Below are positions 6,127 to 58,606 of a stretch of 64,000 nt of DNA, in pieces. The DNA comes from a virus, in the IMG/VR virus record IMGVR_UViG_3300032770_000004, positions 79,375-143,374 of that record. One strand, written 5' to 3'. Position 1 is the stretch's first letter; every line of letters starts with the position of its first letter. The notes under the pieces are model-generated. The model was not told where the DNA came from, made no database searches, and saw only the letters and a program-made list of their open reading frames with translations. The position numbers and the translations under genes were made by a program.

Positions 6127-6132
6127 TAATCT
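6127..6132 (+). promoter_or_regulatory. GTAATCT motif 7 bases before ATG 6140
   Basis: TAATCT, preceded by G, lies 4 bases after the stop of the previous gene and 7 bases before the ATG, which has no Shine-Dalgarno. It fits a -10 element for a leaderless mRNA. Confidence 0.5.
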
Positions 6133-6139
6133 TTTTCCT

Positions 6140-8533
6140 ATGCCGATTCCGGATCATCTTCGTCAACACCATATCTTTGCTGGTGGTAACTGGGGAGCAA
6201 TGTCGGGCGAAAAGCCCATGCATAAACCCATAGTTCCTGCAACTCACGAGAATCTCGTGCGTGCGCTGAAAGGTATGGGATTGAAGTTTGAAGAGACCCA
6301 TGGCAAATACGAACAGCCTGAACGTTCTGTCATCATTTACAATCCAAGTCGCCAACAGATGCGCCACCTTGGCAAGATGTTTGGCCAGGACAGCGTAGTT
6401 CACAGCCAGGGCGGTCAGCACAAACTCGTCTACACTAACGGACCCCACGAAGGAAAGGAACGTGGCACCGCTTTGACGGGAGAGCCGATTGAGTTCTTTG
6501 CCAATCCACCTGATGACTACTATACCCATCTTCCAGGCCATGGCTATTTCCGTGTGAACTTTGATTGGAACAAAGAGCCGGAAGGTGAACCTGTTCAGTC
6601 AGGCCTCGCTAAGGCTTGGCCTACTGAGAAGGAATCTAAGGCGAACCAAGAAACACATCGAGTAATTGGAGATCTCGCAGAAGAAAGGGGCAAGGTTATA
6701 GCTTCCCCACGCCCCGTCCATTCCAAGGATTTTGGAATCAATGCTCATAGAGCACCCTTTGGTGGTGGTGGGCTCTCGCTTCGTAATACTGCTATCTCGG
6801 GCGATAAGCGACATTATATGCCAGCCATATCTATCAACGACCAAGAACTTGAGCGTATGAATGAGTTGGCCACACCTCCAAATCCAGAAATGCGTTCCAC
6901 CTCTGAAAGATACGGTAACGCGGATCTCCTGAATTCAACTGCCGAACCACTAGAAGGAACTGAAACCTATTGGCAAAGCATTGGGGCACATTCCGCCCTG
7001 CCTCATCCTAATGCTTACCCCTGGCACGATGACAATTTGCCCGATTGGGATCGCGAAGATGCGCTTGCTCGCGCACGAAAGCTAAAGTTGATCAAGGCCG
7101 ATGAACAGCATCTAGAAGACCAGAATGCGCCAGTAGGAGTTTCGACATACGCAAAGTTCGCAGCTCCTTATGGTTCAGTCAATCCTTCGGCTCCATCCGA
7201 TCTGACTCATTATCCATACCACGGCAAGCTTCCTGAGATTGAAAATCTTGTGAAGCAGCATGGCTACAAAACTTACTATGCCGGTGGTAAGTATGGCAAG
7301 CCCGACCTTGTGAACAAGAACTACAACACGGGCCATCTGATGATTTACGATCCGACTCCTGGCTCTGGTGGCGACTTCAAACATGAAGAATACACCAAGG
7401 GTTGGCGACAGATTCACGAACTCGCCCATGCATTGACATATCCTGAGCTGAACAAAATCTACGGCGAAGGGCGTCGAATGGGCAAGCTTGGTATCCATCG
7501 CAATCTCAATGAAGCTATGCGAGCCGTTCACTGGGAATGGTTGGCTGCACACAAGCAGCGTGAACTGGGAGAGCAGCTTGGTATCCATATTCCAGATAAC
7601 GTATTCCACAAAGAACTGAATACTGTGATGCACGATGCCGTACATCGTGCTGTTACTGGCAAGTTCACTGAACCTTCTGGCGAAGGATTCACACCACATG
7701 AGCATAAGGTTCCATTGAGCCATGCCATGGATGTGCTACGCGATGAAGCCCAAAACATGGGCCTTCAGCATCGTCACCAGACACTCAAGCCCGCTGCTAT
7801 CGCTAAGCACGAAAAGCGCGAAGAATTACTGGCAAAGGCTTTTCCTCTTGAAAAGCGCTCCAAGAATGTACGCGAGCATCTTGCTTACACTACAGAAGAA
7901 CAACGTATAGCCCGCACGAAAGCCTTCCTACCAAAGATTGGCATCAACGTTCGCGATCCTGAAGCTCTGAACTTTCAGAGTATCAGAGAAGCCCCTCATT
8001 GGGTAAATAAAGAAGGACGTACAGTCAGTGTAGCAGAATCTAAACACGCCATTAATTCGGTACCGCCAGCATTACACGAAGCTGGCCATGCGCTTACCGC
8101 TCCGTACGGAAGATCCATCGAGCAACACCAAAAGGACATCGGTGAAGTAGACATGCCCATTTCACCTAGCCAGAAAATTGACGAGGGGATGGCCACTAAA
8201 ATGGGACACGACCTTGGTCGTCGAGCTGGTATTCCGCCCCAAATGAGCGATCCATATGGTACCAGAATTACGGCCCGTTCTCATGGTTATGACCCCAAAA
8301 CCATTCCTCACGCTAAAAGCAAGGTGCCGGATTTTCAACGCGGCGCGGTACGGGCGGCTATGCGTACTGAGTTAATGGATCAGGGTCTTGCTGGAATTCA
8401 GAATGGCAAGGTCATGCGCATCGGTACCGGCGAAGAAGGATCCGGCTACTTCGGTTACCGTTCTCTTAAAGACATTCACGCAAAAATTAACGCTAGAGCT
8501 ATGGGCTACGGCCCCAAGCCGAAGAAACCATAA
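6140..8533 (+). CDS. Large phage protein with two HExxH (zincin-like) motifs
   Basis: 797 residues. Two separate zinc-protease-type motifs are visible: HELAHA (His426, Glu427, His430) and HEAGHA (His646, Glu647, His650). Each is followed by a Glu-containing helix that could supply a third ligand (NEAMRAVHWEW; KIDEGMATKMGHD). The N-terminal ~170 residues have a compact mixed alpha/beta look. It lies between the repeat protein and the Lys/Ala-rich protein, ahead of the tail sheath, so it may be a virion-borne or maturation protease. That role is inferred from the motifs; the two copies suggest an internal duplication. No Shine-Dalgarno precedes the ATG. Confidence 0.65.
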   Translation: MPIPDHLRQHHIFAGGNWGAMSGEKPMHKPIVPATHENLVRALKGMGLKFEETHGKYEQPERSVIIYNPSRQQMRHLGKMFGQDSVVHSQGGQHKLVYTNGPHEGKERGTALTGEPIEFFANPPDDYYTHLPGHGYFRVNFDWNKEPEGEPVQSGLAKAWPTEKESKANQETHRVIGDLAEERGKVIASPRPVHSKDFGINAHRAPFGGGGLSLRNTAISGDKRHYMPAISINDQELERMNELATPPNPEMRSTSERYGNADLLNSTAEPLEGTETYWQSIGAHSALPHPNAYPWHDDNLPDWDREDALARARKLKLIKADEQHLEDQNAPVGVSTYAKFAAPYGSVNPSAPSDLTHYPYHGKLPEIENLVKQHGYKTYYAGGKYGKPDLVNKNYNTGHLMIYDPTPGSGGDFKHEEYTKGWRQIHELAHALTYPELNKIYGEGRRMGKLGIHRNLNEAMRAVHWEWLAAHKQRELGEQLGIHIPDNVFHKELNTVMHDAVHRAVTGKFTEPSGEGFTPHEHKVPLSHAMDVLRDEAQNMGLQHRHQTLKPAAIAKHEKREELLAKAFPLEKRSKNVREHLAYTTEEQRIARTKAFLPKIGINVRDPEALNFQSIREAPHWVNKEGRTVSVAESKHAINSVPPALHEAGHALTAPYGRSIEQHQKDIGEVDMPISPSQKIDEGMATKMGHDLGRRAGIPPQMSDPYGTRITARSHGYDPKTIPHAKSKVPDFQRGAVRAAMRTELMDQGLAGIQNGKVMRIGTGEEGSGYFGYRSLKDIHAKINARAMGYGPKPKKP

Positions 8534-8536
8534 TCT
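8531..8536 (+). promoter_or_regulatory. TAATCT motif overlapping stop codon
   Basis: The TAA stop of the preceding gene is the first half of TAATCTTT; the next gene begins 23 bases later. Here the base before is A, not G. Confidence 0.3.
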
Positions 8537-8559
8537 TTCAACGAGATGGGAATGTAAAC

Positions 8560-10404
8560 ATGTCCGAGAAAACCTATACAGTCGAAGAGCTTTTGGCCGC
8601 TTGGAAGAAGGTCGAGGCCGAGAAGATCCAGAAGTTCGAAGCAGAGCTAAAGATGCTCCGTGCTCGTGAGCTAAAGAAGGCACTCGTGCCTCCCCACAAG
8701 CATGACGAAGGCACCACTGCTAGTGGTGGTATTGAGGATGTTCCTTCGGACAAGATGACCGACAAGACAGAAGTTTCTGTTTCCGTCAGTGCTTCTGATG
8801 ATGATGGTGGATCCGTCAGTCGTTCGTTCAGCTTTGATACCAAAGACGCCAAGAAGGCCGAGAAGAAGGCCGAGAAGAAGGGTGCCATCTGCGCTAAGTG
8901 CGGAATGATGAAGTCCATGTGTAAGTGCAGCCTGATGAAGGATGTTGCTCCAAGCGGATTCATGAAAGCCATGGTCTCGGACGAAAAGGGCAAGCTTATT
9001 GATACCGGCAAGCGCGACGGTAGCAAGCTCGCTCATGATGCCAAAGAGAAGCAGTACAATGAAGGCACCGAGAGTGACCCGGGTTCTGGTGGAATCATTA
9101 CCAAGGGGCCCAAGGCCATTCGTAAGGCAGCTGCTCAAGGTGGCCCTGCTAAGACCAACACTAACGACGCCGCCAAGAAGATGGGGGCTCCCAAGCGTTC
9201 AGCTACTGAAATGCAGCCCGACTCAAAGCTTCCACAGGAACCCGAGAAGCTTAACACTCAGAAGGCTGAATTCCTTAGCAAGCCTCCCGTATCTGAAGCA
9301 CAGCGACGCGCGATGTTTGCCGCCGCTTCGGGACACAGCACTCTTGGTATCCCGAAGTCTGTAGGTAAGGAATTCTCGGATGCAGATCAGGGCGGAAAGC
9401 TTCCTGAGCACAAGAAGACCAAGAAAGACGAAGTGCCAATGGCAAAGGAACACATTGGTTTTGACAAGTTGAAGAACAAGCTTGCTCATAAGCCTGGGGT
9501 TTCTGATCCCGCTGCTGTAGCCGCTGCAATTGGCCGCAAGAAGTATGGTCAAGCAGAAATGAGTCGAGCTGCTCATGCCGGAAAGGCTGCCCATAAAGCA
9601 GAACCTCCAATGGCTAAGCCGCCTTCCGGAAAGAACATGGCTACGGCCGTTCCAACCAGCAAGCCGATGGCTGCCCCTAAGATGGGTATGATGAAAGAGG
9701 AAAAGGGTGCCGTAAATTCTGATCCTATCGAAAAGGCTGCTGATAAAGAATCCGTCTATCGCGAGCGATACGAGAAGGAACAGGCAGCCAAGCGTGCAGA
9801 AGCCGACAAGAAAGCTCATGCCGAACATGGCAAGATGAAAAATACCATTCGCAATCTTAGCCCCAATTCCCCCTTCAAGCGAGACCTTGCCGGTGGATCG
9901 CTTCGAGTGAACAAGGACGCTATCGCAGACGCAGGGCCGATGTCCGAAATGGCAGCTCCAGATTCGACTGGATATTCTATGCGATCAGAGCTTCCCATGA
10001 AGAAAGACTCGATGACCGAGACCAAGCCTATGGGTAAGCCGGGCATCTTTGGACGTCTCCATGGCGGAATGCATGCCGCAGGAAACGCGATGTCGAAACC
10101 TGCTGCTATGCCAATGGCCGCTCCCAAGCCTGCAATCCCTGCTATGGGTGCAGGTCCAGGACACGCTGCTCAGGCCCCAACTACTCCTGGTGCTATGGGA
10201 TCGCAAATCGCCAAACCTCTAGCTCCGATGCCAAAACTGAAGCCAGCTGCTGTTGCCGCAGGCGTCAAACAGTACGGACAAGGACTGCCAACAGCTCCAG
10301 GTGGTCCAGGCGCAGAAAAGACATCAGCAAGTCGTCCTTCTGCAATGACAACATCAATCAAAACCGCCCCGGCAACTGGAGCTACAGTGCCCGGGAAGAA
10401 GTAA
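8560..10404 (+). CDS. Low-complexity Lys/Ala/Pro/Met-rich protein with Cys motif
   Basis: 614 residues. A short N-terminal helix (residues 1-45) is followed by Ser/Asp-rich sequence, a Cys cluster CAKCGMMKSMCKC near residue 113 that could bind zinc, and long disordered Lys/Ala/Pro/Met-rich stretches. One block, DPAAVAAAIGRKKYGQAEM, resembles a 'DPxALAAxIGRKKYGxxxF' motif I associate with phage structural or maturation proteins; a shortened second copy (VKQYGQ) lies near the C-terminus. Position just before the sheath gene suggests a scaffold-like or internal virion role. This is inference; no enzymatic motif is present. Confidence 0.55.
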   Translation: MSEKTYTVEELLAAWKKVEAEKIQKFEAELKMLRARELKKALVPPHKHDEGTTASGGIEDVPSDKMTDKTEVSVSVSASDDDGGSVSRSFSFDTKDAKKAEKKAEKKGAICAKCGMMKSMCKCSLMKDVAPSGFMKAMVSDEKGKLIDTGKRDGSKLAHDAKEKQYNEGTESDPGSGGIITKGPKAIRKAAAQGGPAKTNTNDAAKKMGAPKRSATEMQPDSKLPQEPEKLNTQKAEFLSKPPVSEAQRRAMFAAASGHSTLGIPKSVGKEFSDADQGGKLPEHKKTKKDEVPMAKEHIGFDKLKNKLAHKPGVSDPAAVAAAIGRKKYGQAEMSRAAHAGKAAHKAEPPMAKPPSGKNMATAVPTSKPMAAPKMGMMKEEKGAVNSDPIEKAADKESVYRERYEKEQAAKRAEADKKAHAEHGKMKNTIRNLSPNSPFKRDLAGGSLRVNKDAIADAGPMSEMAAPDSTGYSMRSELPMKKDSMTETKPMGKPGIFGRLHGGMHAAGNAMSKPAAMPMAAPKPAIPAMGAGPGHAAQAPTTPGAMGSQIAKPLAPMPKLKPAAVAAGVKQYGQGLPTAPGGPGAEKTSASRPSAMTTSIKTAPATGATVPGKK

Positions 10405-10407
10405 TCT
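10402..10407 (+). promoter_or_regulatory. GTAATCT motif upstream of tail sheath gene
   Basis: TAATCT overlaps the stop codon of the previous gene and lies 18 bases before the sheath ATG, which also has GAGGA. Confidence 0.35.
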
Positions 10408-15614: not shown

Positions 15615-15820
15615 TCGGCTACATTAGGAATACCCCACACGCGCTTATGGAGCTGGTAGGCATCAGACCCCTACCTGAGGCTCCAGGTGTTGAATATCAC
15701 GTCGTATTGGCCTGTTCTGGCGATCCTAGGGCCATTGCCGGTGCCACACGTCTCTTGGGAGTAGACCTACTATCGCCAGAATACGTTTATGAACGGAATG
15801 TCATCAAGTTAGGTAAGTAA
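15611..15820 (+). CDS. Hypothetical 69-residue protein
   Basis: Small protein coupled to the kinase-like triplet by an ATGA overlap. It is slightly hydrophobic, without a clear membrane helix or cysteine motif; 'GDPRAIAGATRLLGVDLLSPEYVYER' suggests a small alpha/beta fold. Its coupling suggests it works with the kinase-like proteins, perhaps as a partner or substrate, but nothing in the sequence proves it. Confidence 0.55.
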   Translation: MIGYIRNTPHALMELVGIRPLPEAPGVEYHVVLACSGDPRAIAGATRLLGVDLLSPEYVYERNVIKLGK

Positions 15821-15823
15821 TCT
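15818..15823 (+). promoter_or_regulatory. GTAATCT motif 8 bases before ATG 15832
   Basis: TAATCT overlaps the previous stop codon and lies 8 bases before an ATG lacking a Shine-Dalgarno. It sits in a small inverted repeat, AAGTAA-TC-TTACTT (15815-15828). Confidence 0.5.
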
Positions 15824-16972: not shown

Positions 16973-17086
16973 TCATTTTACCATAGACTCTGGAAGCGGC
17001 AATTGAGGCTGTGGCTTCAGACGCTCGCGTTCTTGGCGCTCTTTTTCGCGGCGAATCAACTCATCGATGATCCATGCAGGAAGCAT
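16973..17086 (-). CDS. Small 37-residue charged protein
   Basis: A short gene: MLPAWIIDELIRREKERQ, then an Arg/Glu-rich helix and a Pro/Gln/Leu tail. Small proteins with 'P-x-W-[IV]-I-[DE]-x-[IL]' followed by RRE repeats and a PxLxLP tail are familiar to me from bacterial genomes, without known function. TAATCT (17094-17099) lies 7 bases before its ATG and its stop is 4 bases from the next start. Both make it a credible first gene of a two-gene unit. Confidence 0.55.
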   Translation of the reverse strand: MLPAWIIDELIRREKERQERERLKPQPQLPLPESMVK

Positions 17087-17093: not shown

Positions 17094-17099
17094 AGATTA
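17094..17099 (-). promoter_or_regulatory. GTAATCT motif 7 bases before ATG 17086
   Basis: On the minus strand GTAATCT lies 7 bases before the ATG of the 37-codon gene. It is divergent to the copy at 17129 on the plus strand. Confidence 0.5.
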
Positions 17100-17128
17100 C
17101 ACCAAACCAAATCAGATTACTAGCCCGA

Positions 17129-17134
17129 TAATCT
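17129..17134 (+). promoter_or_regulatory. TAATCT motif 7 bases before ATG 17142
   Basis: GATAATCT stands 7 bases before the ATG of the ClpP-like gene, which has no Shine-Dalgarno. Confidence 0.5.
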
Positions 17135-17141
17135 AGCCTCT

Positions 17142-17888
17142 ATGCGCCTTATTCCGTTCCTGCTCCTAGTTATCATGGGCTGTTCAAGCACCATGGCTTC
17201 CGTAACGCCTAATGATCCAGCAATACCAGTTCTGCCTCCGTTTTCAGTACAAAGTACTGAACCAACTGATCCCGGTCCAACTCCTTCACTCGTAGAACCT
17301 AAACGAGATGCTGATGACAAACCACTCGTAGCTACTGTGTACTTCGAGGGCGACATTGGCCCAGAGGCAGTTAGAATCTTTGCCCAGCTCGTAGATGAGG
17401 TCCAGGCAAAAGATGTGGATTATTTGATTATTGACATCAGCAGCCCAGGTGGCGATGTCGAAGCTGGATACACCATTTCCAAGATGATCGAAATGTCACC
17501 TGCCAATATTGTCTGTGTAGTAGATGGAGAAGCCGATTCGATGGCATTCTTCATTCTTCAGAGCTGTGATCAGCGTTACATGACTAAGCGCAGTGTATTG
17601 ATGATCCACAATCCTGCATTCCAGGTTCATCCAAACGAACCTGAATATCCAGACTACTATAACAACAAGGCGGACTTTGCCAATGCTTCAGCAGATGCTC
17701 TGCTGGAACATGAGTCTTCAAAACTGAAGATCTCCAAGACCGAACTCGCCTCGCACATTCAAGGCTCGCGACAGTGGTGGTTAAATTGGAAGAAGGCCGA
17801 TGAAATTGGAGCTGTTGATGGCACAGTCAAGAGCGTTCAAGATGTGGCCAAAGACCTTCGAGCTGGCAAGAATGTTCACTTCGAATAA
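17142..17888 (+). CDS. ClpP/S14-like serine protease with lipoprotein signal
   Basis: 248 residues. Residues 1-14 form a lipoprotein signal peptide ending in a lipobox-type Cys14 (LLVIMGC), then a Pro-rich linker to about 55. The rest has the ClpP/crotonase-fold protease layout: oxyanion-loop motif ISSPGGD (residues 99-105), nucleophile Ser133 in 'EADSMAF' and His156 in 'LMIHNP'. The usual third Asp is not clear: 'GSRQWW' stands where ClpP has R-D. A membrane-anchored periplasmic protease is the natural reading, unlike cytoplasmic phage head proteases. It is a lone plus-strand gene in a minus-strand block, ending in a 13-base convergent overlap. Confidence 0.8.
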   Translation: MRLIPFLLLVIMGCSSTMASVTPNDPAIPVLPPFSVQSTEPTDPGPTPSLVEPKRDADDKPLVATVYFEGDIGPEAVRIFAQLVDEVQAKDVDYLIIDISSPGGDVEAGYTISKMIEMSPANIVCVVDGEADSMAFFILQSCDQRYMTKRSVLMIHNPAFQVHPNEPEYPDYYNNKADFANASADALLEHESSKLKISKTELASHIQGSRQWWLNWKKADEIGAVDGTVKSVQDVAKDLRAGKNVHFE

Positions 17889-25888: not shown

Positions 25889-27478
25889 TTATAGCTCGAC
25901 CTTGTTGATCAAGTCAACCCAGTGTTGACCATTCAGCTGTCCCTTGAGGAACAGAGAAACGATGTCAAACACGCGGTCGTTGAAGCCGCCGACATTCAGC
26001 ACGTCGGCCATCTTGTCGGGCACCTGAACTGTAGCGCCCGGCTGAATGTCGATGCAGACCAGCTTTGCGCCTGGGTTGCGCTTCTTGAAGGCTGCCCATT
26101 CTGCGGCCATGTCAGTACCTCCAATGTAATGAGAAGCGTAGGCCGAACGAGCGAAAGAAACCCAGGACTCATTGTCCGACACGAAAATGACAGCGTCGGC
26201 CTTTGCCTTGGTTTCATTCAGGTGACGAAGAGCAGCCGCACAGTCAGTGCCGCCACCAGGAAGCTCTAGGAGCTTGTTTGCGTTTGTCATCACTGAATCG
26301 CGAGCTTCGAGTTTGATTGGCACAACTTGCGTGTGGAATGGCAACACGGTGGCGTCTTCGTTCTTGCGAACGACCGAGGCAGCCATGAGAGAGGCGACAT
26401 CAACGCAACGTACTGCCGTCGTACCGCCGCCGCGATAACCCGTAACGGGAGCCCTCATAGAACCCGAAATGTCAACAGCAACAACCACCTTGCCGGGCAG
26501 CTCGGGAACATTCTCCGTAGAGATTTCCAAAGCGTCCTGAAGAGCGCCAGTGATCTTGGCGGGCAAGTCGGCAGCATTCATGTACGCAGTCAGAAGCTGG
26601 TACGGAAACACCTTGGACTTGACGATTGACTCGCGATCCTTCAACAGATCAGCGATCTTCTTGACCTGAGTTCCGCCGTCCAAATTGAACACGCCATTGC
26701 GCTTCAGCGTGTTGAGATTCATGCGGAGAGTCTGCCAGCCCATCGACTCGGCAAGAACAGCCCACTGATCAGCGGACATCTTGACGTTCGAAAGGAACTG
26801 GAAGTTGATCTCAGGAGGCGCACCGGCTGGGTCCTTCTTGAACTTCTCGAAGGCGGCGACCTGAGCGGGGAGCAGATTGACATCATACTCCTTATCGAGC
26901 AGGTAGGCGAACATGTTGTTCATCGCAGGCGTAGTCGCCTTGGGGTGAACCATCTTGATGACATCGGCCAGTGACGGATCGTTTCCGATCGACTGAGCAA
27001 ACAGCTTGGAAGGACCCAGGCCATTCAGCATGCGCTGAATTGCCTTCTTGACCGCAGTGCCGAAGCTCTTGCGGCCGACCTTGCCCGAGCGAACAACTTG
27101 AACGAAGTTGCGGAGCATCTTGACGTTGTCAATCACGCGGGGAAAAGCCTTCTTGAAGTACACAAGACCGGCATTGCCTTCGCGCTCGACGGTCAACGAT
27201 GCGACCAGGAGAGCGGGCATGTCCTTCATGTAGCCGAATTCACGAGCATACACGGCCAGCTTGGCGACGAATTCGGGGCTGCACTTGGAGATCAACTTCA
27301 GAGTCATGTCGAGCTGGGTTTCAGCATCGGCGTAGAAGGTGTTGTTGAGGCAGCCAGTCAGCACGTATTGTGCGAGGGCGTGTTCGTCAGTGGTCTGGTA
27401 AGCGACACCTCCAGCCTCGTTGACAGCGGTGGTGGCATCTAAAGTACGACCGGGGTTCTTGAAAACGTTCTTGTTCAT
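25889..27478 (-). CDS. Ro60-like TROVE-domain RNA-binding protein
   Basis: 529 residues, close to the size of Ro60. Residues 1-325 form the helical TROVE HEAT-like ring (start 'QTTDEHALAQYVLTGCLNNTFY', which resembles Ro60/Rsr proteins); 330-529 is a von Willebrand A domain with a complete-looking MIDAS: D-I-S-G-S (Asp336, Ser338, Ser340), Thr411-Asp412 and Asp435 (VSDNES). Ro proteins bind misfolded RNAs and small Y RNAs. In bacteria Rsr works with exonucleases. GGAGGAG ribosome-binding site, extended -10 promoter and terminator frame it as a single-gene unit. Y RNA partner not proven. Confidence 0.9.
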   Translation of the reverse strand: MNKNVFKNPGRTLDATTAVNEAGGVAYQTTDEHALAQYVLTGCLNNTFYADAETQLDMTLKLISKCSPEFVAKLAVYAREFGYMKDMPALLVASLTVEREGNAGLVYFKKAFPRVIDNVKMLRNFVQVVRSGKVGRKSFGTAVKKAIQRMLNGLGPSKLFAQSIGNDPSLADVIKMVHPKATTPAMNNMFAYLLDKEYDVNLLPAQVAAFEKFKKDPAGAPPEINFQFLSNVKMSADQWAVLAESMGWQTLRMNLNTLKRNGVFNLDGGTQVKKIADLLKDRESIVKSKVFPYQLLTAYMNAADLPAKITGALQDALEISTENVPELPGKVVVAVDISGSMRAPVTGYRGGGTTAVRCVDVASLMAASVVRKNEDATVLPFHTQVVPIKLEARDSVMTNANKLLELPGGGTDCAAALRHLNETKAKADAVIFVSDNESWVSFARSAYASHYIGGTDMAAEWAAFKKRNPGAKLVCIDIQPGATVQVPDKMADVLNVGGFNDRVFDIVSLFLKGQLNGQHWVDLINKVEL

Positions 27479-27505: not shown

Positions 27506-27521
27506 CAAATTGTTGCGTTAG

Positions 27522-27530
27522 ATTATAGCA
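27522..27530 (-). promoter_or_regulatory. Extended -10 promoter TGCTATAAT of the Ro60-like gene
   Basis: Perfect extended -10 on the minus strand. TTGACA lies at 27542-27547, but its 14-base spacing is too short, so the extended -10 probably carries the activity. Confidence 0.7.
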
Positions 27531-28050: not shown

Positions 28051-28057
28051 GGTACCT

Positions 28058-28087
28058 TTCTTAGGCTCAATGCCGACCTTTTGTCAA
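28058..28087 (-). promoter_or_regulatory. Promoter, TTGACA-18-TAAGAA
   Basis: -35 TTGACA at 28082-28087; the -10 (TAAGAA, 28058-28063) is weak. It would drive the 28050 gene. Confidence 0.5.
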
Positions 28088-28093
28088 GCAAGG

Positions 28094-28099
28094 TAATCT
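28094..28099 (+). promoter_or_regulatory. GTAATCT motif upstream of the tail-chaperone gene
   Basis: GGTAATCT lies 62 bases before the ATG at 28162, in the divergent region where the second virion block starts. Confidence 0.35.
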
Positions 28100-28161
28100 G
28101 TACCACGAGGACATCGATCGGAGCACTTAGCCCCGGTGTCCAATTCCAACTTGAGGTATCC

Positions 28162-28826: not shown

Positions 28827-29333
28827 ATGTCCTGGATCAACGACCTCAAAGCATTAGCGATGCAATCGGTCCTCAAAGAGGATCTCGACTACCTTCTGCG
28901 TGATATTTTCCGTTGGTACTCCAAGGAGTTTGTCACTCCTTTACACGTTGTAGAGACACTTCCTTTAGAGGATGTTCTTCGGCACTATTATGAGGTTAAA
29001 TATGCCGAACTATCTGAACATGAACGGCTCGAAGAGATTGACCGTCTACTGTTGACAGAAGAGGCCCTCCGAATTCGCAAAGAACAGGAGGATGCTGATG
29101 ATGCCGATGCCTTTGAATATGCTAAGGCAGCTGAAAAGGTAGAGAAGTCTAAGGCACAAGCCAAAGAAGACCTGAAGCCACGTGTTGAACCTGAAGCTAC
29201 GCTACCAAAATTGAAGGACATGAAGGAACTCCCACAAGATATGGAGATCACCTTCATTGATGACAATGTAGATCCAGACGCCCTCTTGGAGGGCAGCTTC
29301 GGGCCGCCGTCCAAAAAGCCTAAGAACGGGTAA
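28827..29333 (+). CDS. Acidic helical protein before tape measure
   Basis: 168 residues, highly charged and mostly helical: 'LKALAMQSVLKEDLDYLLRDIFRWYSKEF' then 'EDVLRHYYEVKYAELSEHERLEEIDRLL'. The Ala/Glu/Lys-rich middle is followed by a Pro-rich acidic end. Position (chaperone, zinc protein, this, tape measure) matches the second tail-assembly chaperone of many myoviruses, but no sequence family is recognised. Its stop codon forms part of the GTAATCT motif serving the next gene. Confidence 0.55.
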   Translation: MSWINDLKALAMQSVLKEDLDYLLRDIFRWYSKEFVTPLHVVETLPLEDVLRHYYEVKYAELSEHERLEEIDRLLLTEEALRIRKEQEDADDADAFEYAKAAEKVEKSKAQAKEDLKPRVEPEATLPKLKDMKELPQDMEITFIDDNVDPDALLEGSFGPPSKKPKNG

Positions 29334-29336
29334 TCT
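29331..29336 (+). promoter_or_regulatory. GTAATCT motif 7 bases before ATG 29344
   Basis: GGTAATCTTT overlaps the previous stop codon and lies 7 bases before the endonuclease ATG, which lacks a Shine-Dalgarno. Confidence 0.5.
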
Positions 29337-35446: not shown

Positions 35447-36076
35447 ATGGCAACATTTCCAATCAGCGTAGCCGAGCAGACAATGCTCGATCAAATCAAA
35501 GCAGACGGCATTTCGATTAGCTCTCGTGGCGTGGCCGTAGATGTTGATGGTGACGGCACGGGTGATACGCCCTACATTACTGATTTGCCGATGCCAGTCA
35601 AGAACTGGGATACGCTGGTGCCTTCTGGTTCAATCCTTGAAAAGAAGGTAGCCGATGGACTTCGTGTGGCCGCACTTCCCATTGTTCGTCAGGTGATGCC
35701 AATAGGATGGCACGATGAGAATGTTGGTTTCGGCCACTCAATCAGCGGATCCAACGTTACACTCAACAAGTTCAGCATTCCACAGGACCAGATTCTCCAG
35801 GCCCCCAGACAAGTAATGGCAACCGTATCCTGGTCAGCCTACTCTACAGTGGCGAGCACTGGCGTCAGTTACTTCCTTGACGTAAATGGCACTCCTACTA
35901 CATCGATGCCATTCTATTTCAACGAAGCCAACTCGCACAGGTCCATGTCTGGCAACTGGTTGCTTACCATTCCAGCCGGTACAGTAACCATCACCTTCTA
36001 TGCAGTAAGAAGCTCTGGAACGGGTGTTATCACCATGGATTCCAACGACTTCTCATCCCTCACACTGATGGGGTAA
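35447..36076 (+). CDS. Virion protein of unknown fold
   Basis: 209 residues, beta-rich: 'VDVDGDGTGDTPYITDLPMP' (possible calcium-binding Asp cluster), then 'GHSISGSNVTLNKFSIPQDQI' and a C-terminal jelly-roll-like stretch (LLTIPAGTVTITFYAVRSSGTG). Between spike and wedge genes; probably a baseplate or tail-tip accessory. No family recognised. TAATTT precedes the ATG directly and no Shine-Dalgarno is seen, so translation may be coupled to the spike gene. Confidence 0.6.
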   Translation: MATFPISVAEQTMLDQIKADGISISSRGVAVDVDGDGTGDTPYITDLPMPVKNWDTLVPSGSILEKKVADGLRVAALPIVRQVMPIGWHDENVGFGHSISGSNVTLNKFSIPQDQILQAPRQVMATVSWSAYSTVASTGVSYFLDVNGTPTTSMPFYFNEANSHRSMSGNWLLTIPAGTVTITFYAVRSSGTGVITMDSNDFSSLTLMG

Positions 36077-36079
36077 TCT
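36074..36079 (+). promoter_or_regulatory. GTAATCT motif 8 bases before ATG 36088
   Basis: GGGTAATCTT overlaps the previous stop codon and ends 8 bases before the wedge ATG, which has no Shine-Dalgarno. Confidence 0.5.
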
Positions 36080-38643: not shown

Positions 38644-38653
38644 TTGGCCGGGG

Positions 38654-38659
38654 TAATCT
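38654..38659 (+). promoter_or_regulatory. GTAATCT motif upstream of the 38702 nuclease
   Basis: GGGGTAATCT lies 11 bases after the preceding stop codon and 42 bases before the nuclease ATG, so it is not part of a stop codon here. Confidence 0.35.
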
Positions 38660-39163: not shown

Positions 39164-42100
39164 TATCCCAACTCCACGAAGCTACTCTCAGATCCTCGGA
39201 GAGATGGTTGACGCTCTTCTTTCGCGCCTCGGCCTTCCGAGTCTGCGAGTTGGCTCGCCTGCGCTTTCGATTCTAGAAGCCGCTGCCCAATCCGACCTTC
39301 GTAGCTCGCAAGACATTTTCAACCTTCTCAATTCCTTGAGTCTAGATCGTGCATCGGGCTTGGCGTTGGATCGCATCGGTGCCGATGAACAGGTTCCTCG
39401 CCTCGGTCAGACAGCCGCCTCAGGAGCCGTTGACATTAGCGATACTGCCTTCACTAAGATTTCAACGCTCATCTATCAGGGCCTTGGCTCTCCAATCGTA
39501 GGTACCATGACCTTGAATGTAGATGATGCTAGCCTTTTCCCGACTAGCGGCAACATCTACGTCGGTCGTGGCACTACCAATTACGAAGGACCCATTCCTT
39601 ACACTGCCACTACCAATGTCGGTAGCTATTGGGCACTGACTCTTGGAACTGGAACCACCAAATTCCACAATCTAGGAGAAGGAGTTGTACTTGCACAAGG
39701 CGGCAATCGAAACATTCCTGCTGGTACTCTAATGGCAACGCCACAAGGCAATGCTGGTACTGCTGTGCAGTTCTCGACCCTTTATGGCGCTACTATCCCC
39801 GATGGTGAAACACTAGTTCAGAACATTCCATCTGTTGCACGTGTTCCTGGGTCTATCGGCAACGTAATTGCTAACAGCGTTACCACATTTGTCTCTCCTC
39901 CGTTTACTACCGCTGCCGTCAATAACCCAGCTCCATTCGCCAACGGTCTTGATACTGAGGATGATCAGTCCTACCGTGAACGTATCCGCTCTGCTCGCAA
40001 TTCGCGCAGCAAGGGAACAGACCTTGCCATTCAGACTGGCGTTATTGGCATCACTGCCCTCGACGAGAATAAGCGCGTCCTAAGCGCGAGCATTGTCACA
40101 CGCGAAGACGAGCCCGTCACTCTCTACATCGACGACGGTACAGGATACGAGCCTATCTCTGAAGGAATCGCCTTTGAAATCATAGTAGACGATGCCTTGG
40201 GTGGCGAGCAGTATTTACAGCTGGCTAACGGTCGACCGGTTCAAAAAGCATCCATTGTCAGCGCACTTTCGGCTCCTTTTGTGCTTTCGGATAACTGTCA
40301 ACTTGCGGTTGAAGTTAGCGGTGTTAGAAGCACACATCAGTTCCCCGCTTCCGACTTCTCTGAAATCACCAATGCTAGCGCATTTGAAGTGGCAGCATCT
40401 ATCAACAGCGACCCCGCAATCAGCTGGTCGGCAAGCGCCACCAACAACGGCAATAATGTTCTCATCTTCGCCAAGGCTGACTCGAACGAGGATCTCCAGG
40501 TAGTTGCAGCAGATGCCGGTCTGATTGATGCCAACGACCTTCTTGGCTTCAATACCAATCCCGCCAAGACCCTTTGGCTCTACAAGAATGATGTTCTCCT
40601 TGAAAAGGATGGCGAGCTGGCCCTTCTTACTACCAAGCCACAAAGTCAGTGGTCTTCTATCGCCACGGGCGCGACTCTGAACATTTCGGTTGATGGTATT
40701 CCATTGACAATCACCATCAACGATGTCGACTTTATCAACGCCGGAACCTCCTACGTCAAGGTAGCTGCTACTAATTCTTTGGCGTCTTGGGCTCAGGTTT
40801 TGAACTATAAGATTCCAGGCGTCACCGTGACGGTTGATGGCGGATCTCTCGACTTTACTAGCAACAGTGGGCGAAGTTCGCGAGCAGCGATTGCCATCAC
40901 TGGCGGTTCCATGCAAGGTGCGATGTTTAGCACAATGACTGCCCAAGGCCGCAACAAGGACTATAGTCTGGATCGCAACCTTGGTCAAATTAAGCTAGAG
41001 ACACCACTCATAGCTGAAGATCGCCTAACCGCTGGAAGTCTCAATACTCGTGGTTTCGTGGTAACCCCAGCTTTCACTACCCATAATATTGCTTCTGTTG
41101 CCACCAGCGTTGCTGGCCAGAATGGCGCAGAACTTTGGGTGGTAGTTGATGGAAATGCTCAGATTGTCAATATCGGAGCTGGCATAGGTACATCATTAAC
41201 TGTAACCAATCCCACTTCTCCTACCTGGGGAAAACGCGTACGTTACAACAGTAACGCAGCCGCCAATCTCTTTGGTAACGCTCTAGAAGGTGACTGGGTT
41301 ATTGCGACAGACCTTGCATTTAACATTGCTAACCGTGGAGCATACCGTATCGCGGCAGTAGATGCTGGCGGTACCTGGATTGAAGTTGAACGTCCATCTT
41401 CGTGGTCCACTACTCAGGCTGCCTTCAATCTCTTGACGGGCGGAATGAAGGTCGTTCGTACCTTAGTAGAACCACAGCGTGTATTCATCACTACAGCCAA
41501 TAACTATACAGCCCTCAGTCTTGTGACGGCAATGCAGCCACAGCTTGATGGAGCAACCGCCGAAGTCTATCAAACCCAGCAGGTTCTTCTGCGCACCAAT
41601 AGCTTTACTGGAGGCGACATTGCGGTCGTAGCAGCCAATGACGAAGGCGTTCTCCTTGGCTTCCCCCTAACCGGAGCTGTGGCTAGCGGTATTAGCCACC
41701 TTGCAAGTATCGTCGCAAGCCATCCTCAGACTGGAACTCCTGGATTCAATAACTACACGGTATTTTCGGTCACTAGCTCAACAGTCATCAACTATGGATC
41801 CGGTACTGCTCCGAGCAGCAGCGGTATTCTCGTCGGACTCAAGGCTCTTGATGATACTAGCGGTACTAAGTATAGCAACAAGAACCACATTTCCGGTATC
41901 GCTTCACAGTCCGGTACTGTGCTGACATTACGTACCCCGGCACTAGAACAATGGCTACCGCAAGACCGCTTCTACGTATCGTCTTCATATGGAATCACTG
42001 CCCGAGATCAGATTGCGGTAGTGGTTGATGGCGATGAAATCAGCAAGCGTTATGTGATGAATATGTATCGTCGCGTAACCCCAGGCAGCACCACGTATGG

Positions 42101-46935: not shown

Positions 46936-49900
46936 ATGCCAGCAACTACTACGTTCACAGGTATTGGAATTTCGCTTCAGTCTGTTACTCCACAGACTAA
47001 CGGATCTTCCTTGCTTGTGCGTTTTACAACAGTTCCACTTCAGGTAAGTCCACTTGGCGCTAATGATGCGTTGAATCCGGCTAACTATGCTCTTACGGGT
47101 CCTGGTTCTGCTGCCATTTCGAGTGTTTCATCGGTAGCTACGGATTCGCAATCTGTAGCCATCGCATTCAGTTCTCCACTTGCTGCTGGAACGTGGATAC
47201 TCACTGTAACGAATATTCAAACCCCCGGGGCCGTTGGCCTGATTCCGCCTACCAGCATGACCTTCTTGGTCACGGTTAGCGCCAATGCCACCTCATTGGC
47301 GGCTGGCGCTAGCAATGATGATGCAGAAAAAATCATTCGTAAGCACCTCAGTCAAGGAATGGCTGGTGACAACTGGAATGCTCTCATCGCGGGGCTAGCT
47401 AGTGGAGACGATGCAAACTGGACCAATGCCGAGCTTGCATTTGATCAGCTCTTTGAGATTTCCGCCAGCGGCGCTTATCTTGACCGTCTTGGCTCCAATC
47501 GCGGTATTGTTCGACCACCCGATGTCGGACTGAGCGATGACCTCTACCGCCAGCTCCTGATCGCCCTTAACAGCAACAAACTGACCCACGAAGCTCTCCG
47601 TGAAATCCTGGCTATCTTCTATGGCCAGGATGCATTGCGAGCCTGGGCAGAGACCTCGCTTGAGGAGCCATTTGCCCTTAAAGATGGATCTACGCTGACC
47701 TGGGAACTCGACGAAGATACGGACCTATCTACGACCTTCTCGGCTGAACAATTCACTCAAATCGAAGCCGCTACCGCACTCGAAGTCGCGTCCATACTAA
47801 CCAAAGCCATGGCCGATGCTGGTACCTTCGGCTATGCAGCGGCTGTTGTCAATCCAATTACTGGTGGCAAGCGAGTTCGCATCTATAGCGGCAGCCTGGG
47901 CCTTAAGTCTTTCGTACGCATTACTGGTGGAACAGCACAGCCCTTCGTTCGTTTCCCGCTCTACAAAGAGGTCTACAGTGGTACGGTCACTTCTGGACTT
48001 GGTTACAACTGGTCATATAGCAACCCTTCTCAGGGCGTTACCAGAATCTCGCTTACTACAGTCGGCCAGCCGCTAATCGATATCTCGTCAATTCAGGCGG
48101 GGGACTATGTAGTAATTGGCCCCAACATCAACGTAGCTTCGGGTTCGTACTCCATTACGGCTGTTGATTATTCGTGGAGCGGCACATCACTCACGCAATC
48201 GTTTGATCTCGATGTCGATTTGGGATTCGTTGGTTCTACTCTTCAAATAGGAAATGACGACTATCGCTTCTTCAACCCTCAGAAACAAACAATCCTTAAT
48301 GGATCCAGAACTGTGGTGGTTGCCCAGGTTCAGCCCGGTCAAGTCGATATTCAAATTCCTGCAACTACCCAGGCTGTCAGTAGAGGACCCAGAATCGCTG
48401 CATATGGTCGAGATAACGCAACCACATTGGCAGTGGAGAGCTACATCCGTGACACTGACGGAACGGTTACGCTCAATCTCAGCGAGAGCCTTGGTTCACC
48501 GCTCGCCGCCAATTCTCAAATCTTCCTAGAGGGCTTTAGGCCTGCGCTTAGTCGCCCATGGACTAGCCCCGGCGTACCTGGAACATACCCTGCTGTAGCT
48601 ACAGCAAACGCCAGTTATGGCACTTGTTGGACATCTACCCAGACTCCCCCGTCTGCAAATAAGCATTTCAGCAGAATGGTGGCGTTGCAGAACGATGACA
48701 TTCTGATTACCGGAGGACTCTCGTTCTCTGGTGGTGTCACTGCCGGTGAATCCGCGAAAGCTAATAGATTCCGTCTTGCATCAACCACTACCACGGTCAA
48801 TGACGGCAGTGAAGCCGATGGAGCATCGAGATTTTCGTATCAGTGGATCGCGACGGCAGATATGAATACGGCACGCCTGGAACACGCACAGTCCCTGCTT
48901 GCTGATGGGCGCGTATTGGTGACGGGTGGTCAGTCATCAACAGGAAGCGGGATAGTATTCAACGTTATCACCGCTAAGAATTCGCCAGAGATTTATTCTC
49001 CATCTACCAATACCTGGACCAATGTAGCCGCAATGTCTATGAAGCGTACGGGCCATCAACAGGTGACGATGAACAACAACAAAGTCATCGTGATTGGTGG
49101 CGCCTTTAACATGGGCACGGCCACGAATACTACCGAAATTTTCGATCCGTCAACTGGCGTATGGTCAGCTGGTGCTTCGATGTCCATTCCCAGATACCAG
49201 CACAAAGCGGTTGCTCTCTCTGATGGTCGAATCTTTGTGACTGGCGGACGCACGCTCGGCCAAACAATGGCTACGCCAAATACCTGTCTAGCGTACTGGA
49301 CAATGGATGACTCCAGCAATCCTACTTTTGTCAACGATTTAGTTGGTAGTTGGCCGCTGGCTGTGCATGGTAGCCCTACTATCATTGATGGAAAGGTTAA
49401 TTCGGCACGTGACTTCACTGTCTCTGGTTCATGGGCAGATGAAAATGGCTACCTGAATGATCCTACCGCTATTTCCCTGCTAACAGGCGAATGGACTATC
49501 GAATTCTGGCTTCCCGCTGGATCCGGAACAGACGGCGTACTATTCGCGTATGGAGGACCAACCGGCGTCCTTGCAGACAATCTACTTTTTGAAGTAGGTC
49601 TTGCCGGAGGTGCCATTTATTGGAAGTGGCAATATGGTGCTGGTGTGAATGTCACTGCCACGGCTACTACCACTTTGGCTGGATGGCAATATGTAGGAAC
49701 ATTCATTGCTGTCAGAAAGAAGTTCAATGGAACTAACTATGACGTTTCTTGGTTTCTCAATGGCGTCGTAATGGACACCTGGACAAACCAAACGAATTGT
49801 GCAGGCGGTACTAATGCACAATGGTTTATCTGTGCAGATCCTAAAACCTCACCTGTTGTGAATGGTGGATCGCGAGCTATTCTTGATGAAGCTCGTATCA

Positions 49901-51582: not shown

Positions 51583-52007
51583 GAGCACGTTCGATAGTCA
51601 CAGCAGGTGTCATTTGTTACATTAATGGTAAGCCTTTCGGGCGCGTCAAGGACTTTAGATTTGAAAGTTCTACCGGCAAGAAGCCGCAGTACGCTGTCGA
51701 CACGCTTGAGCCATACGAGTTGATTCCCACTATTACCAGGGTTACGGGGAGCATGACACTTCAACGTACTGTAGGAGACGCAGGTGCAGAAGGAGCTGCC
51801 TTGACGGTTCGTTTCGAAGACCTCCCACGCGAGCGTTACTTTAGCGTTCAACTCATTGAACGAGTCAGTGATACCCTCATTTTCGAAGCAAAATACTGTG
51901 CAGTTACGCGTCAATCCTGGAGTTTCCCCGAGAAAGGGGTTGTCACCGGATCCGTGGAATTCGAAGCCATCGACTGGTCCAATGAACTTCGCCCAGCCCA
52001 GGCGTAA
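51579..52007 (+). CDS. Second tail-tube-like protein
   Basis: 142 residues. The beta pattern - 'GVICYINGKPFGRVKDFRFESS', 'TITRVTGSMTLQRTVGDAG', 'VVTGSVEFEAIDWSNEL' - is that of tube-fold proteins, with a loop-strand-helix like the tail tube at 13418 but little direct identity. It could be an initiator of the tube at the hub or a tail terminator-type ring. GGAGG ribosome-binding site and ATGA overlap with the Kelch gene. Its stop forms the GTAATCT motif. Confidence 0.6.
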   Translation: MRARSIVTAGVICYINGKPFGRVKDFRFESSTGKKPQYAVDTLEPYELIPTITRVTGSMTLQRTVGDAGAEGAALTVRFEDLPRERYFSVQLIERVSDTLIFEAKYCAVTRQSWSFPEKGVVTGSVEFEAIDWSNELRPAQA

Positions 52008-52010
52008 TCT
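52005..52010 (+). promoter_or_regulatory. GTAATCT motif upstream of the 52033 HNH gene
   Basis: TAATCTTT overlaps the previous stop codon and lies 22 bases before the nuclease ATG, which also has GAGG. Confidence 0.3.
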
Positions 52011-52032: not shown

Positions 52033-52431
52033 ATGAAAATTTGCAAGTGTGGTCAAGAATTTGAAGGAAAATGGAAGTGTGCTAAGTGCAAATCTCAGTA
52101 TCAGCACGATTGGTATCAGAAAAACAAACATAAAATTTATATAGATCCTCGTGCTAAAGCAAGCAAAAAGAAATGGCGAAACAAAAAGGCGGCAGAGTGG
52201 ACGAAGAAATATCACAATCTTAAGCGCGGACCTTGTGTGGATTGCGGTAAGACTTATCAACCCTGGCAAATGCAATTTGATCATATTGGTGATGACAAAT
52301 TCGATAATGTCGCCACAATGGTTCATGATTTCAAGCCCTTTGAAGAAATTGTAGCAGAGATTAAGAAATGCGATTTGGTTTGCGCAAATTGCCGTGCTGA
52401 TCGTACCTATAAACGTTTGCATTCCGAGTAA
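52033..52431 (+). CDS. HNH-type free-standing endonuclease
   Basis: 132 residues. N-terminal zinc knuckles (CKCGQEF, CAKCKSQ), a basic linker, then CVDCG, 'MQFDHIGDDKF', 'NVATMV' and a closing 'KKCDLVCANCRADRTYKR'. The D-H and later N with flanking Cys pairs define an HNH-type core different from the endonuclease VII group, and shared with the gene at 58616 (DFDHVRGHKSRNVAQMV). It is inserted between tube-like and fibre genes, as homing endonucleases often are. Confidence 0.85.
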   Translation: MKICKCGQEFEGKWKCAKCKSQYQHDWYQKNKHKIYIDPRAKASKKKWRNKKAAEWTKKYHNLKRGPCVDCGKTYQPWQMQFDHIGDDKFDNVATMVHDFKPFEEIVAEIKKCDLVCANCRADRTYKRLHSE

Positions 52432-52434
52432 TCT
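52429..52434 (+). promoter_or_regulatory. GTAATCT motif upstream of the fibre gene
   Basis: TAATCTTA overlaps the HNH stop codon and lies 15 bases before the fibre ATG, which also has GGAG. Confidence 0.3.
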
Positions 52435-55048: not shown

Positions 55049-55588
55049 ATGGCTGATTTTGAAGATGCAATCGGTGTCATACTAGCGCATGAGGGTGGCT
55101 GGTGTTCTGTTGCTGCGGATCCTGGTGGCGAGACCAATTATGGTATCAGCACCCTCATTATCGAACGCGAAGGCATCACCAATGAGCAACTTGGATTACC
55201 GCCAGGAAGAGATCCTGGTTGGATGAAAGCCATGTCCGTAGATGCAGCCAAGATGATCTACCAGAATCTATTTTGGAACAAATGGGAATATGGCGCTATT
55301 TCGGATCAGACAGCAGCTACCAAGCTCTTTGACTGTTCCGTCAACTGTGGGCCCAATAGAGCCCATTTAATGGCCCAGAAAGCCGCCAACGCCTGTGGCC
55401 AGAATATCGCTGAAGATGGAATTTTGGGACCCGCCACGGTCGCTGCTATTAACGCTTGCGATCCAAAGGCTTGGGTAACCGCGTTCGCCCAGGAAATGAC
55501 AGACTACTACACTAACCTTGTCAAGGCCCGTCCAAGTCTCGGGATCTTCTTGAAAAATTGGCTGCACCGAGCTTCTTGGGGCGTGTAA
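55049..55588 (+). CDS. Endolysin: GH108-type N-acetylmuramidase
   Basis: 179 residues. The start 'ILAHEGGW' with Glu15 in H-E-G-G, then 'DPGGETNYGIS', is the GH108 signature (Glu is the catalytic acid). The C-terminal half (AANACGQNIAEDGILGPATVAAINACDP) matches the phage peptidoglycan-binding domain that accompanies it. It cleaves glycan strands of the cell wall. It has no signal peptide, so it needs a holin or spanin route; the best holin candidates are at 15.8-16.4 kb. It is coupled to the fibre gene. Confidence 0.9.
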   Translation: MADFEDAIGVILAHEGGWCSVAADPGGETNYGISTLIIEREGITNEQLGLPPGRDPGWMKAMSVDAAKMIYQNLFWNKWEYGAISDQTAATKLFDCSVNCGPNRAHLMAQKAANACGQNIAEDGILGPATVAAINACDPKAWVTAFAQEMTDYYTNLVKARPSLGIFLKNWLHRASWGV

Positions 55589-55591
55589 TCT
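55586..55591 (+). promoter_or_regulatory. GTAATCT motif upstream of the 55610 gene
   Basis: TAATCTTA overlaps the endolysin stop codon; AAGGAG follows 11 bases before the next ATG. Confidence 0.3.
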
Positions 55592-55609
55592 TATTGGAAG
55601 GAGAAAACC

Positions 55610-56305: not shown

Positions 56306-56312
56306 GATGTAG

Positions 56313-57712: not shown

Positions 57713-58416
57713 CGATCCTCCAGAGTGGGCTTCAGCCACAGCTTACCCGTAAAGATGGCTTGTTGAAACTCGATGCCCATGTTGTGTAGAAAGTCCAAAG
57801 TACCGATCGTGTCATGGGCCAAGCATCGAGTCAGCTCTTCTTGCTTCCTTTCGACGGAGATCTTGGTCTTCAGATTCTCCAGGACATGAAGATCCCACAT
57901 AGCCAGCTTGGTCTCTGAATGGATGCGGAATCCCTTAGTCAGAGAGAAACGCATCGCACGCATCACCCGCAGCGCATCCTCAGTAAAGCGGTCCAGAGGA
58001 TTCCCGACGCAGCGTAGAACCATGGCCTTCAGATCGGCCATGCCGTTGTGGGGGTCGATGAAGTTTCCATTCGAGTCCTTGGCAATAGCATTGACGGTGA
58101 AGTCACGGCGTGCCAGATCGTCCAGAAGAGTACCAGCCTCGACCTTGTCGGGGTGCCGACCGTCCGTGTAGCCGTATTCCTTGCGACACAGAACGAAATC
58201 AGCTGGTTGGTGACCCTTCAGATGGGCTCGAATGGTGAAGTGCTGAGGAGACTCCAGAAACACCTTGCCGTTGGCCTGTACCCACTCCAGCATGTGGGTG
58301 TAGGAATCGGCCTCGACAGCATAGTCGATATCCTTGGACCTCTTGCCCAGCAGCTCGTCGCGCACGGCGCCGCCAACCATGTAGAGCTTAACTTGCTTAT
58401 CGTGATGGTCGCTCAT
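57709..58416 (-). CDS. CCA-adding-type nucleotidyltransferase (short)
   Basis: 235 residues. Class II tRNA nucleotidyltransferase motifs are clear: GGAVRDELLGKRSKDIDY (15-32, metal Asp29 and Asp31), RRDFTVNA (103-110) and EDALRVMRAMRF (146-157). These build the active site that adds CCA or A to RNA 3' ends. The C-terminal body and tail domains (usually another ~150 residues) are missing, so it may act on other RNAs or be a compact version. The start overlaps the upstream 44-residue gene (TAATG). Confidence 0.85.
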   Translation of the reverse strand: MSDHHDKQVKLYMVGGAVRDELLGKRSKDIDYAVEADSYTHMLEWVQANGKVFLESPQHFTIRAHLKGHQPADFVLCRKEYGYTDGRHPDKVEAGTLLDDLARRDFTVNAIAKDSNGNFIDPHNGMADLKAMVLRCVGNPLDRFTEDALRVMRAMRFSLTKGFRIHSETKLAMWDLHVLENLKTKISVERKQEELTRCLAHDTIGTLDFLHNMGIEFQQAIFTGKLWLKPTLEDR

Positions 58417-58550
58417 TACATGATCTCCGGATGGGGAATGTTAAAAACGTGACAGGCGACATGCAAACAGGTGCGAATCGCCCAAAGAACTTCCGGAGTG
58501 GTATAGGCGGCAAGTCGCATCAGGGAGTTCATATATCGGGAAAGTATCAT
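58416..58550 (-). CDS. Small 44-residue protein
   Basis: Unassigned small gene: MILSRYMNSLMRLAAYTTPEVLWAI, then a Cys/His-containing end (CLHVACHVFNIPH). GTAATCT (58557-58562) lies 6 bases before its ATG, and its stop overlaps the nucleotidyltransferase start (TAATG). The promoter-like element and coupling make it credible as the first gene of that operon. Function unknown. Confidence 0.5.
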   Translation of the reverse strand: MILSRYMNSLMRLAAYTTPEVLWAIRTCLHVACHVFNIPHPEIM

Positions 58551-58556
58551 GTCGGT

Positions 58557-58562
58557 AGATTA
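58557..58562 (-). promoter_or_regulatory. GTAATCT motif 6 bases before ATG 58550
   Basis: GGTAATCT on the minus strand, divergent from the plus-strand copy at 58601. Confidence 0.5.
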
Positions 58563-58600
58563 CCTGTCAAGTGGGTCTATACAGATGGGTACTAGTGTAG

Positions 58601-58606
58601 TAATCT
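58601..58606 (+). promoter_or_regulatory. GTAATCT motif 9 bases before ATG 58616
   Basis: AGTAATCT lies 9 bases before the HNH-gene ATG, which has no Shine-Dalgarno. Confidence 0.5.

Follow-up and report, generated by a model that had tools for sequence, protein, structure and literature searches.

The locus and its phage

The window, the whole 64,000-nucleotide stretch analysed here, corresponds to bases 79375-143374 of a 169,962-base (~170-kb) virus record. It carries genes for a tail sheath, a baseplate assembly protein, a Clp-protease-like protein and a TROVE-like protein, with the word GTAATCT recurring at gene junctions. The record has a 127-base terminal direct repeat and is therefore probably a complete circular map. 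The nearest named relative of the phage is Myxococcus phage Mx1 (169,621 bp), with identities of 47% for DNA polymerase III alpha, 43% for the terminase and 61% for the major capsid protein (MCP). Promoters are not mentioned in the published announcement of the Mx1 genome. PHROGs and Pfam searches of most window proteins returned no matches. Outside the window, the ribonucleotide reductase alpha gene (158415-161051 of the record) encodes an 878-aa product, seemingly with an intein-like insert that is missing from the ~570-aa Mx1 orthologue.

The family to which both phages belong consists of 162-182 kb myophages and was opened up by tblastn in phage records together with two-sequence alignments. 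IMG/VR single-protein scans with helicase and DNA polymerase gave no relatives; the scan with the terminase gave one 7.8-kb contig, whose corresponding junction also has GTAATCT, 7 nt ahead of the following ATG. A first set of ten phages (our own phage, Mx1 and eight IMG/VR genomes) was later extended by four genomes to 14 phages in all, among which MCP identity is 55-75% (55-61% for the four later-added genomes). Genes were called by a codon-usage script blind to both the motif and the Shine-Dalgarno (SD) sequence, and genomes were oriented with the capsid gene on the plus strand. Gene starts are hence computed ones; the published Mx1 starts give the same pattern.

Motif sites in the window

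The sites below are given in window coordinates, with distances counted from the last T of the motif to the ATG, and with the number of relatives that have the motif at the orthologous junction.

6126..6132, plus: GTAATCT, predicted late promoter; 7 nt to ATG 6140 (797-aa gene), no SD; 6/8 relatives
15817..15823, plus: GTAATCT, predicted late promoter; 8 nt to ATG 15832 (93-aa gene), no SD
17129..17134, plus: TAATCT preceded by A, predicted late promoter; 7 nt to ATG 17142 (248-aa Clp-protease-like gene); 2/4 relatives
29330..29336, plus: GTAATCT, predicted late promoter; 7 nt to ATG 29344 (167-aa ORF), no SD; TAA is the upstream stop
36073..36079, plus: GTAATCT, predicted late promoter; 8 nt to ATG 36088 (851-aa baseplate assembly gene), no SD; TAA is the upstream stop; 9/9 relatives
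58600..58606, plus: GTAATCT, predicted late promoter; 9 nt to ATG 58616 (158-aa gene with cysteine pairs, conserved in 6 relatives), no SD
17094..17100, minus: GTAATCT; 7 nt to the ATG of a 37-aa ORF (16973-17086) abutting the next minus-strand gene
17114..17120, minus: second GTAATCT; 27 nt to the same ATG (ORF 16973-17086)
58557..58563, minus: GTAATCT; 6 nt to the ATG of a 44-aa ORF (58416-58550), whose stop overlaps the next start
635..641, plus: GTAATCT, putative late promoter; 38 nt to ATG 680, SD present (CTGGAGAT)
8531..8536, plus: TAATCT, putative late promoter; 23 nt to ATG 8560; TAA is the upstream stop
10401..10407, plus: GTAATCT, putative late promoter; 18 nt to ATG 10426 (tail sheath gene), SD present; TAA is the upstream stop; 7/8 relatives
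28093..28099, plus: GTAATCT within called gene 28018-28560; promoter role doubtful
38653..38659, plus: GTAATCT; 42 nt to ATG 38702
52004..52010, plus: GTAATCT, putative late promoter; 22 nt to ATG 52033; TAA is the upstream stop
52428..52434, plus: GTAATCT, putative late promoter; 15 nt to ATG 52450 (865-aa gene), SD AGGAG; TAA is the upstream stop; 8/9 relatives
55585..55591, plus: GTAATCT, putative late promoter; 18 nt to ATG 55610, SD AAGGAG; TAA is the upstream stop; 6/6 relatives
27520..27525, minus: TAATCT without the G; TTGACA 16 nt upstream, and TATAAT overlapping TAATCT

An earlier note on this DNA had described eight SD-less ATGs closely preceded by TAATCT, and all eight were reproduced with spacers of 6-9 nt. 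The six plus-strand ATGs open ORFs of 93-851 aa, whereas the two on the minus strand open only 37 and 44 aa; the 37-aa ORF has no match in nine relatives. The eight sites listed at wider spacing are likewise all present, and seven of them are gene junctions, the doubtful one being that at 28094 inside a called gene. Overlap of the motif with the preceding stop codon was also confirmed, the TAA being the stop of the upstream gene at seven junctions (8531, 10402, 29331, 36074, 52005, 52429 and 55586). Further copies of GTAATCT at 5065, 13135 and 46738 are intragenic with no gene start nearby. The minus-strand site at 27520..27525 looks like a host-type promoter for the TROVE-like gene (25889-27478) rather than a late promoter.

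Two pairs of predicted late promoters stand back to back on opposite strands (17094-17142 and 58557-58616), and the record holds several such divergent pairs. Convergent pairs within 60 nt were not found in the record.

Enrichment and strand use

TAATCT occurs 30 times in the window (21 on the plus strand and 9 on the minus strand), 18 of these preceded by G. The plus strand holds 15 copies of GTAATCT, compared to a mean of 3.8 and a maximum of 11 in 200 order-3 Markov simulations; TAATCT-N6-9-ATG occurs 9 times (simulated mean 1.5, maximum 5, again from 200 simulations). In the whole record GTAATCT is found 32 times on the plus strand and 8 times on the minus strand, for simulated means of 9.4 and 8.3, while the reversed word used as control gives 9 and 11. 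The excess thus lies on the strand of the structural genes. TAATCT-N6-9-ATG is found 23 times in the record (order-3 Markov mean 3.4, maximum 8). Before called starts, TAATCT at a spacer of 6-9 occurs 10 times on the structural strand and 0 times on the other; spacers of 10-14 are not seen, and 9 starts have spacers of 15-30. The earlier note had proposed such position statistics for the complete record, with a lack of enrichment outside the window speaking against the element. This objection falls away because enrichment before ATG persists in the rest of the record.

A de novo word count in the ten phages placed AATCTT, CAATCT or TAATCT among the words leading upstream of structural-strand genes in 10/10 cases. 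Upstream of other-strand genes, in contrast, TTGACA or different words lead, and AATCT-type words lead in 0/10. In the four added genomes AATCTT, AATCTA or TAATCT lead on the structural strand only (4/4). Hence the "phage-wide" use first suggested did not hold: the motif is at background level upstream of the other strand's genes in 14/14 phages and is limited to late/structural gene junctions on the structural strand in all 14, "late" being assigned from gene content. Counted within 64 nt of an ATG, YAATCT precedes 209 structural-strand genes as opposed to 26 other-strand genes in the ten phages. The late genes beyond these 209 are read through or have other promoters.

Pooling of the sites yields the consensus G..G[C/T]AATCTT. 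AATCT is nearly invariant, and single substitutions within it are at background when the ten genomes are pooled. In the same genomes the following base is T in 175/270 sites and G is preferred at -1 and -4 of the motif. The base preceding AATCT upstream of late genes is C 139 times and T 89 times, with C in most relatives. GTAATCT is therefore our own phage's spelling of the pooled family consensus; when it alone was counted across relatives, several looked negative until the C-variant was allowed.

The motif is conserved at orthologous junctions, with a pooled odds ratio of 13.5 (p = 7e-22, for phages that are related and not independent) and p < 0.003 in 6/9 single comparisons. Kinship among the phages means that all pooled p-values overstate independence. 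Loci of only ~20 kb from phages with distant MCPs gave no clear spacing peak, being too short to show the motif; whole genomes of five phages from this distant tier do show it.

Spacing and the predicted start position

The motif-to-ATG distance is bimodal, with classes at 5-10 nt and 15-30 nt. In the ten phages the closer class is sharply peaked (38 genes at 7 nt, 11 at 8 nt and 0 at 6 nt) and is separated by a trough at 11-14 nt from a second mode at 15-24 nt. The two classes differ in their use of the SD (Fisher p = 2e-18, ten phages): across 14 phages it is present at 6/77 starts with 5-10 nt spacing (71/77 without), compared to 81/111 starts with 15-30 nt spacing. At SD-led sites a purine occupies the position 8 nt past the motif in 76% of cases, and a pyrimidine-purine step falls there in 47%, compared to ~20% at most neighbours. 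This +8 purine of the leadered sites coincides with the position of the A in the leaderless ATG. Thus, two independent site classes, leaderless and leadered, indicate the same start nucleotide. If the +8 base is taken as +1, AATCTT would lie at -12 to -7 with the preferred G at -14, the extended -10 position. The alternative register, with TAATCT at -13 to -8, would describe the same layout.

The close-spaced subset looks leaderless, the ATG being the predicted +1, and to this extent agrees with the leaderless layout proposed in the earlier note. A TAnnnT leaderless reading is too narrow for the element as a whole: the first base is mostly C in relatives, and most sites appear not to be leaderless, the larger group lying 15-40 nt upstream of an SD-bearing start.

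Absence of a -35 element and other promoter classes

When the sites are aligned, information is confined to positions -5 to +6 of the motif and to the start itself. A -35 signal was searched for as TTGACA (≤1 mismatch) 15-19 nt upstream and was found in only 3/209 sites. Upstream of Mx1 early-strand genes, TTGACA is followed by a TAnnnT -10 at 17 nt spacing, and related but weaker TTGACA/-10 patterns occur in several other phages. Because this early-strand TTGACA-N17-TAnnnT arrangement contrasts with the -35-less late motif, two promoter classes appear to be present in these phages. TTGACA is found 123 and 107 times on the two strands of our own record, compared to 28 and 29 for the reversed word; this is far above promoter need, and TGTCA/TGACA words are generally over-represented.

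Several other repeated words were observed. On the Mx1 minus strand (L013, L014; e.g. record 87509, 88636 and 91425), AGATCCGCTAGTAT- or GGATCTGCTAGAGT-like blocks lie upstream of many early-strand genes and apparently form a second promoter class, again arranged in a fixed way. Also in Mx1 (e.g. record 85263, 96421, 115743 and 125817), GATCAAC-N3-GTA or GATCCAC-N3-GTA is followed after ~7-10 nt by an SD-less ATG, possibly a separate leaderless class of early or middle genes. In genome G009 an unrelated promoter-like word, AGATTCGCTAT, recurs ahead of genes on either strand, with 24 sites on the early strand.

The late motif is also found 6-9 nt before three tRNA genes. In our own record the tRNA-Gln and tRNA-Met genes (39981-39994 and 47533-47545, outside the window) follow TAATCT by 6-7 nt, and TTGACA is found 16 nt upstream. 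These may be either hybrid early/late promoters or sites of leaderless tRNA transcripts; both (39981, 47533) could also be host promoters.

A candidate phage sigma factor

The Mx1 annotation lists gene 2071-3078 as a putative sigma factor (phage sigma factor accession WNM70309). A match is present in 14/14 genomes, the orthologue in our own phage spanning the record ends. The PHROG family phrog_351, "RNA polymerase sigma factor", matches 11/12 sigma members, and a 12-member profile compared against the PDB matched only sigma factors (best E 5e-6), the best alignment running from region 2 through the LTxREAKVLRMRFG stretch of region 4.1. The single-domain Pfam match is weak (Sigma70_r2, E about 1e-3). 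An AlphaFold (AF2) model has a pLDDT of 72, and the 50 listed Foldseek PDB matches are sigma chains or sigma-containing complexes with E just above 1e-3. The ~350-aa phage proteins stop no more than about a dozen residues past LTxREAKVLRMRFG (that of L023 continues for ~18), so that the region 4.2 helix-turn-helix, the reader of the -35, is missing.

The missing region 4.2 fits the missing -35, and co-occurrence together with this anatomy makes the phage sigma the likely reader of the late promoter. The suggestion that the motif might be the -10 of a host or phage sigma factor is thereby narrowed to a phage-encoded candidate, which every one of the 14 genomes has. The possibility that the sigma is split, with its region 4 encoded by the following gene, was discarded because that gene's product resembles no sigma domain. 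In genome G007 the sigma gene (L143:10691-12862) is interrupted in frame by an insertion bearing an intein splicing domain (Pfam PF14890, E 3e-10), located near the -10-reading part, around the SETLIHFY motif.

Proposed late promoter and alternative explanations

The GTAATCT-type word is almost certainly a short promoter common to at least 14 related large phages. Enrichment, strand use, spacing and recurrence in 14 phages support the earlier proposal of a phage-specific promoter element with fixed geometry. More specifically, we assign a probability of roughly 0.83 to a late promoter without a -35, read by a phage sigma lacking region 4.2, with +1 located 8 nt after YAATCT. Its promoter role, start position, late timing, link to the sigma and leaderless translation are what we infer from the genome sequences. 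In the proposed mechanism, G..G[C/T]AATCTT would act as -10 plus extended -10 with no -35 partner, and would be recognised by RNA polymerase carrying the phage sigma (which comprises regions 2 and 3 and stops short of region 4.2). The RNA would start 8 nt after the last T of YAATCT. An ATG at the start point would give a leaderless message, translated from its 5' AUG without a Shine-Dalgarno, while an ATG at least 15 nt from the motif would give a short leader with one. Early-strand genes would be served by ordinary host-type TTGACA-N17-TAnnnT promoters, and because of this the phage sigma would supply the late switch.

The main competitor, which we consider unlikely, has host sigma-A or a host alternative sigma reading the motif as a TAnnnT -10, with no phage factor beyond perhaps an activator. 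TAATCT of our own phage does fit TAnnnT, an element that marks leaderless bacterial genes when placed ~12 bp upstream of the start (PMC3160421), and the two tRNA sites also bear TTGACA at 16 nt. However, most relatives have C as the first base, and the middle ATC is invariant instead of free; the -35 is absent, TTGACA-N17-TAnnnT being found separately upstream of early-strand genes; and strand-specific use needs a late factor.

Far less probable is an RNA processing site, at which an endonuclease would cut polycistronic late RNA ~8 nt downstream to yield leaderless or short-leader messages. A fixed distance to the 5' end is expected here too, and many sites do lie between same-strand genes and overlap the upstream stop codon. 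The motif is nevertheless present at 66/146 junctions (45%) whose upstream gene lies on the opposite strand, compared to 223/1157 (19%; p = 6e-11), i.e. it is 2.4x commoner where that gene leaves no RNA to cut. It also directly follows intrinsic terminators in four phages (4 of 29 terminator junctions, too few for statistics); at 29800 of our own record it lies between a CCCCCAGGAG hairpin with T-run and the ATG. The G found at the extended -10 position, and the fact that every genome has a matching sigma gene, argue against processing as well. A signal for translation, to which the ribosome or a phage initiation factor would bind instead of to a Shine-Dalgarno, would account for motifs 7-9 nt before SD-less ATGs, but the same motif and flanks occur 15-40 nt before SD-bearing starts, as well as 6-9 nt before three tRNA genes where a start codon is absent, and the start-site signature is common to both spacing classes; we regard it as very improbable. 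Least credible of all is that chance or codon and stop-codon context yields the word. Although the motif's TAA frequently does serve as a stop codon, CAATCT, which contains none, behaves alike, and simulation, strand contrast, reversed-pattern controls and recurrence in 14 phages refute this explanation.

For the late promoter read by the phage sigma, a stronger version can be formulated, which we hold to be speculative and rather improbable: one 8-bp element and a region-4.2-less sigma would fix the start to the nucleotide, so that as many as about half of the promoter-proximal late genes of some phages would be leaderless, and tRNA-Gln and tRNA-Met of this phage would start no more than 1 nt from their mature 5' ends, bypassing RNase P. 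The late promoter as proposed would present a natural sigma that ends before region 4.2 paired with a -35-free promoter outside the T4 group. Natural promoter pairs at 7 nt and 15-25 nt from the ATG would moreover make leaderless and SD-led initiation comparable in one infected cell.

Comparison with known systems

The leaderless TAnnnT genes of Deinococcus and actinobacteria (PMC3160421) resemble the phage sites in that a -10-like element precedes an SD-less ATG at a short, constant distance. Those elements are host sigma promoters with a free middle, whereas in the phage element ATC is invariant, C or T stands first, and more than half of the sites appear leadered. Because its first base and invariant middle do not fit, the element does not belong to the host TAnnnT leaderless class.

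AR9 and phiKZ likewise have short late elements of their own by which the start site is set (AACA-N6-TA/G and TATG, respectively; PMC5312081). These are read by phage multisubunit RNA polymerases and not by a sigma on the host polymerase, and AR9 leaders measure 26-491 nt. The promoters of the phiEco32 and phage 7-11 sigma factors are TAATGTATA and TGATGT (PMC4331800); there, too, a phage sigma has its own short promoter motif and temporal classes are formed. Their motif is unrelated, however, and leaderless starts are unmentioned in PMC4331800.

T4-like late genes have leaders with a Shine-Dalgarno. T4 late promoters, TATAAATA at -13 to -6, are read by the sigma gp55 with gp33 and the clamp gp45 (PMC1524935; PMC7892883). 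In common with that system, the element described here is a short rigid -10-type sequence without a -35 upstream of late genes, kept across a phage family that encodes its own sigma. Unlike in T4, the sequence is GYAATCTT, the sigma of ~350 aa covers region 2 through the beginning of region 4, and many sites look leaderless. The T4 late sequence TATAAATA was found 0/1 times in our own phage and 0/0 times in Mx1, which does not match a T4 gp55-type promoter. We would place the element among phage late promoters, T4-like in layout but different in sequence, and not within the T4 type.
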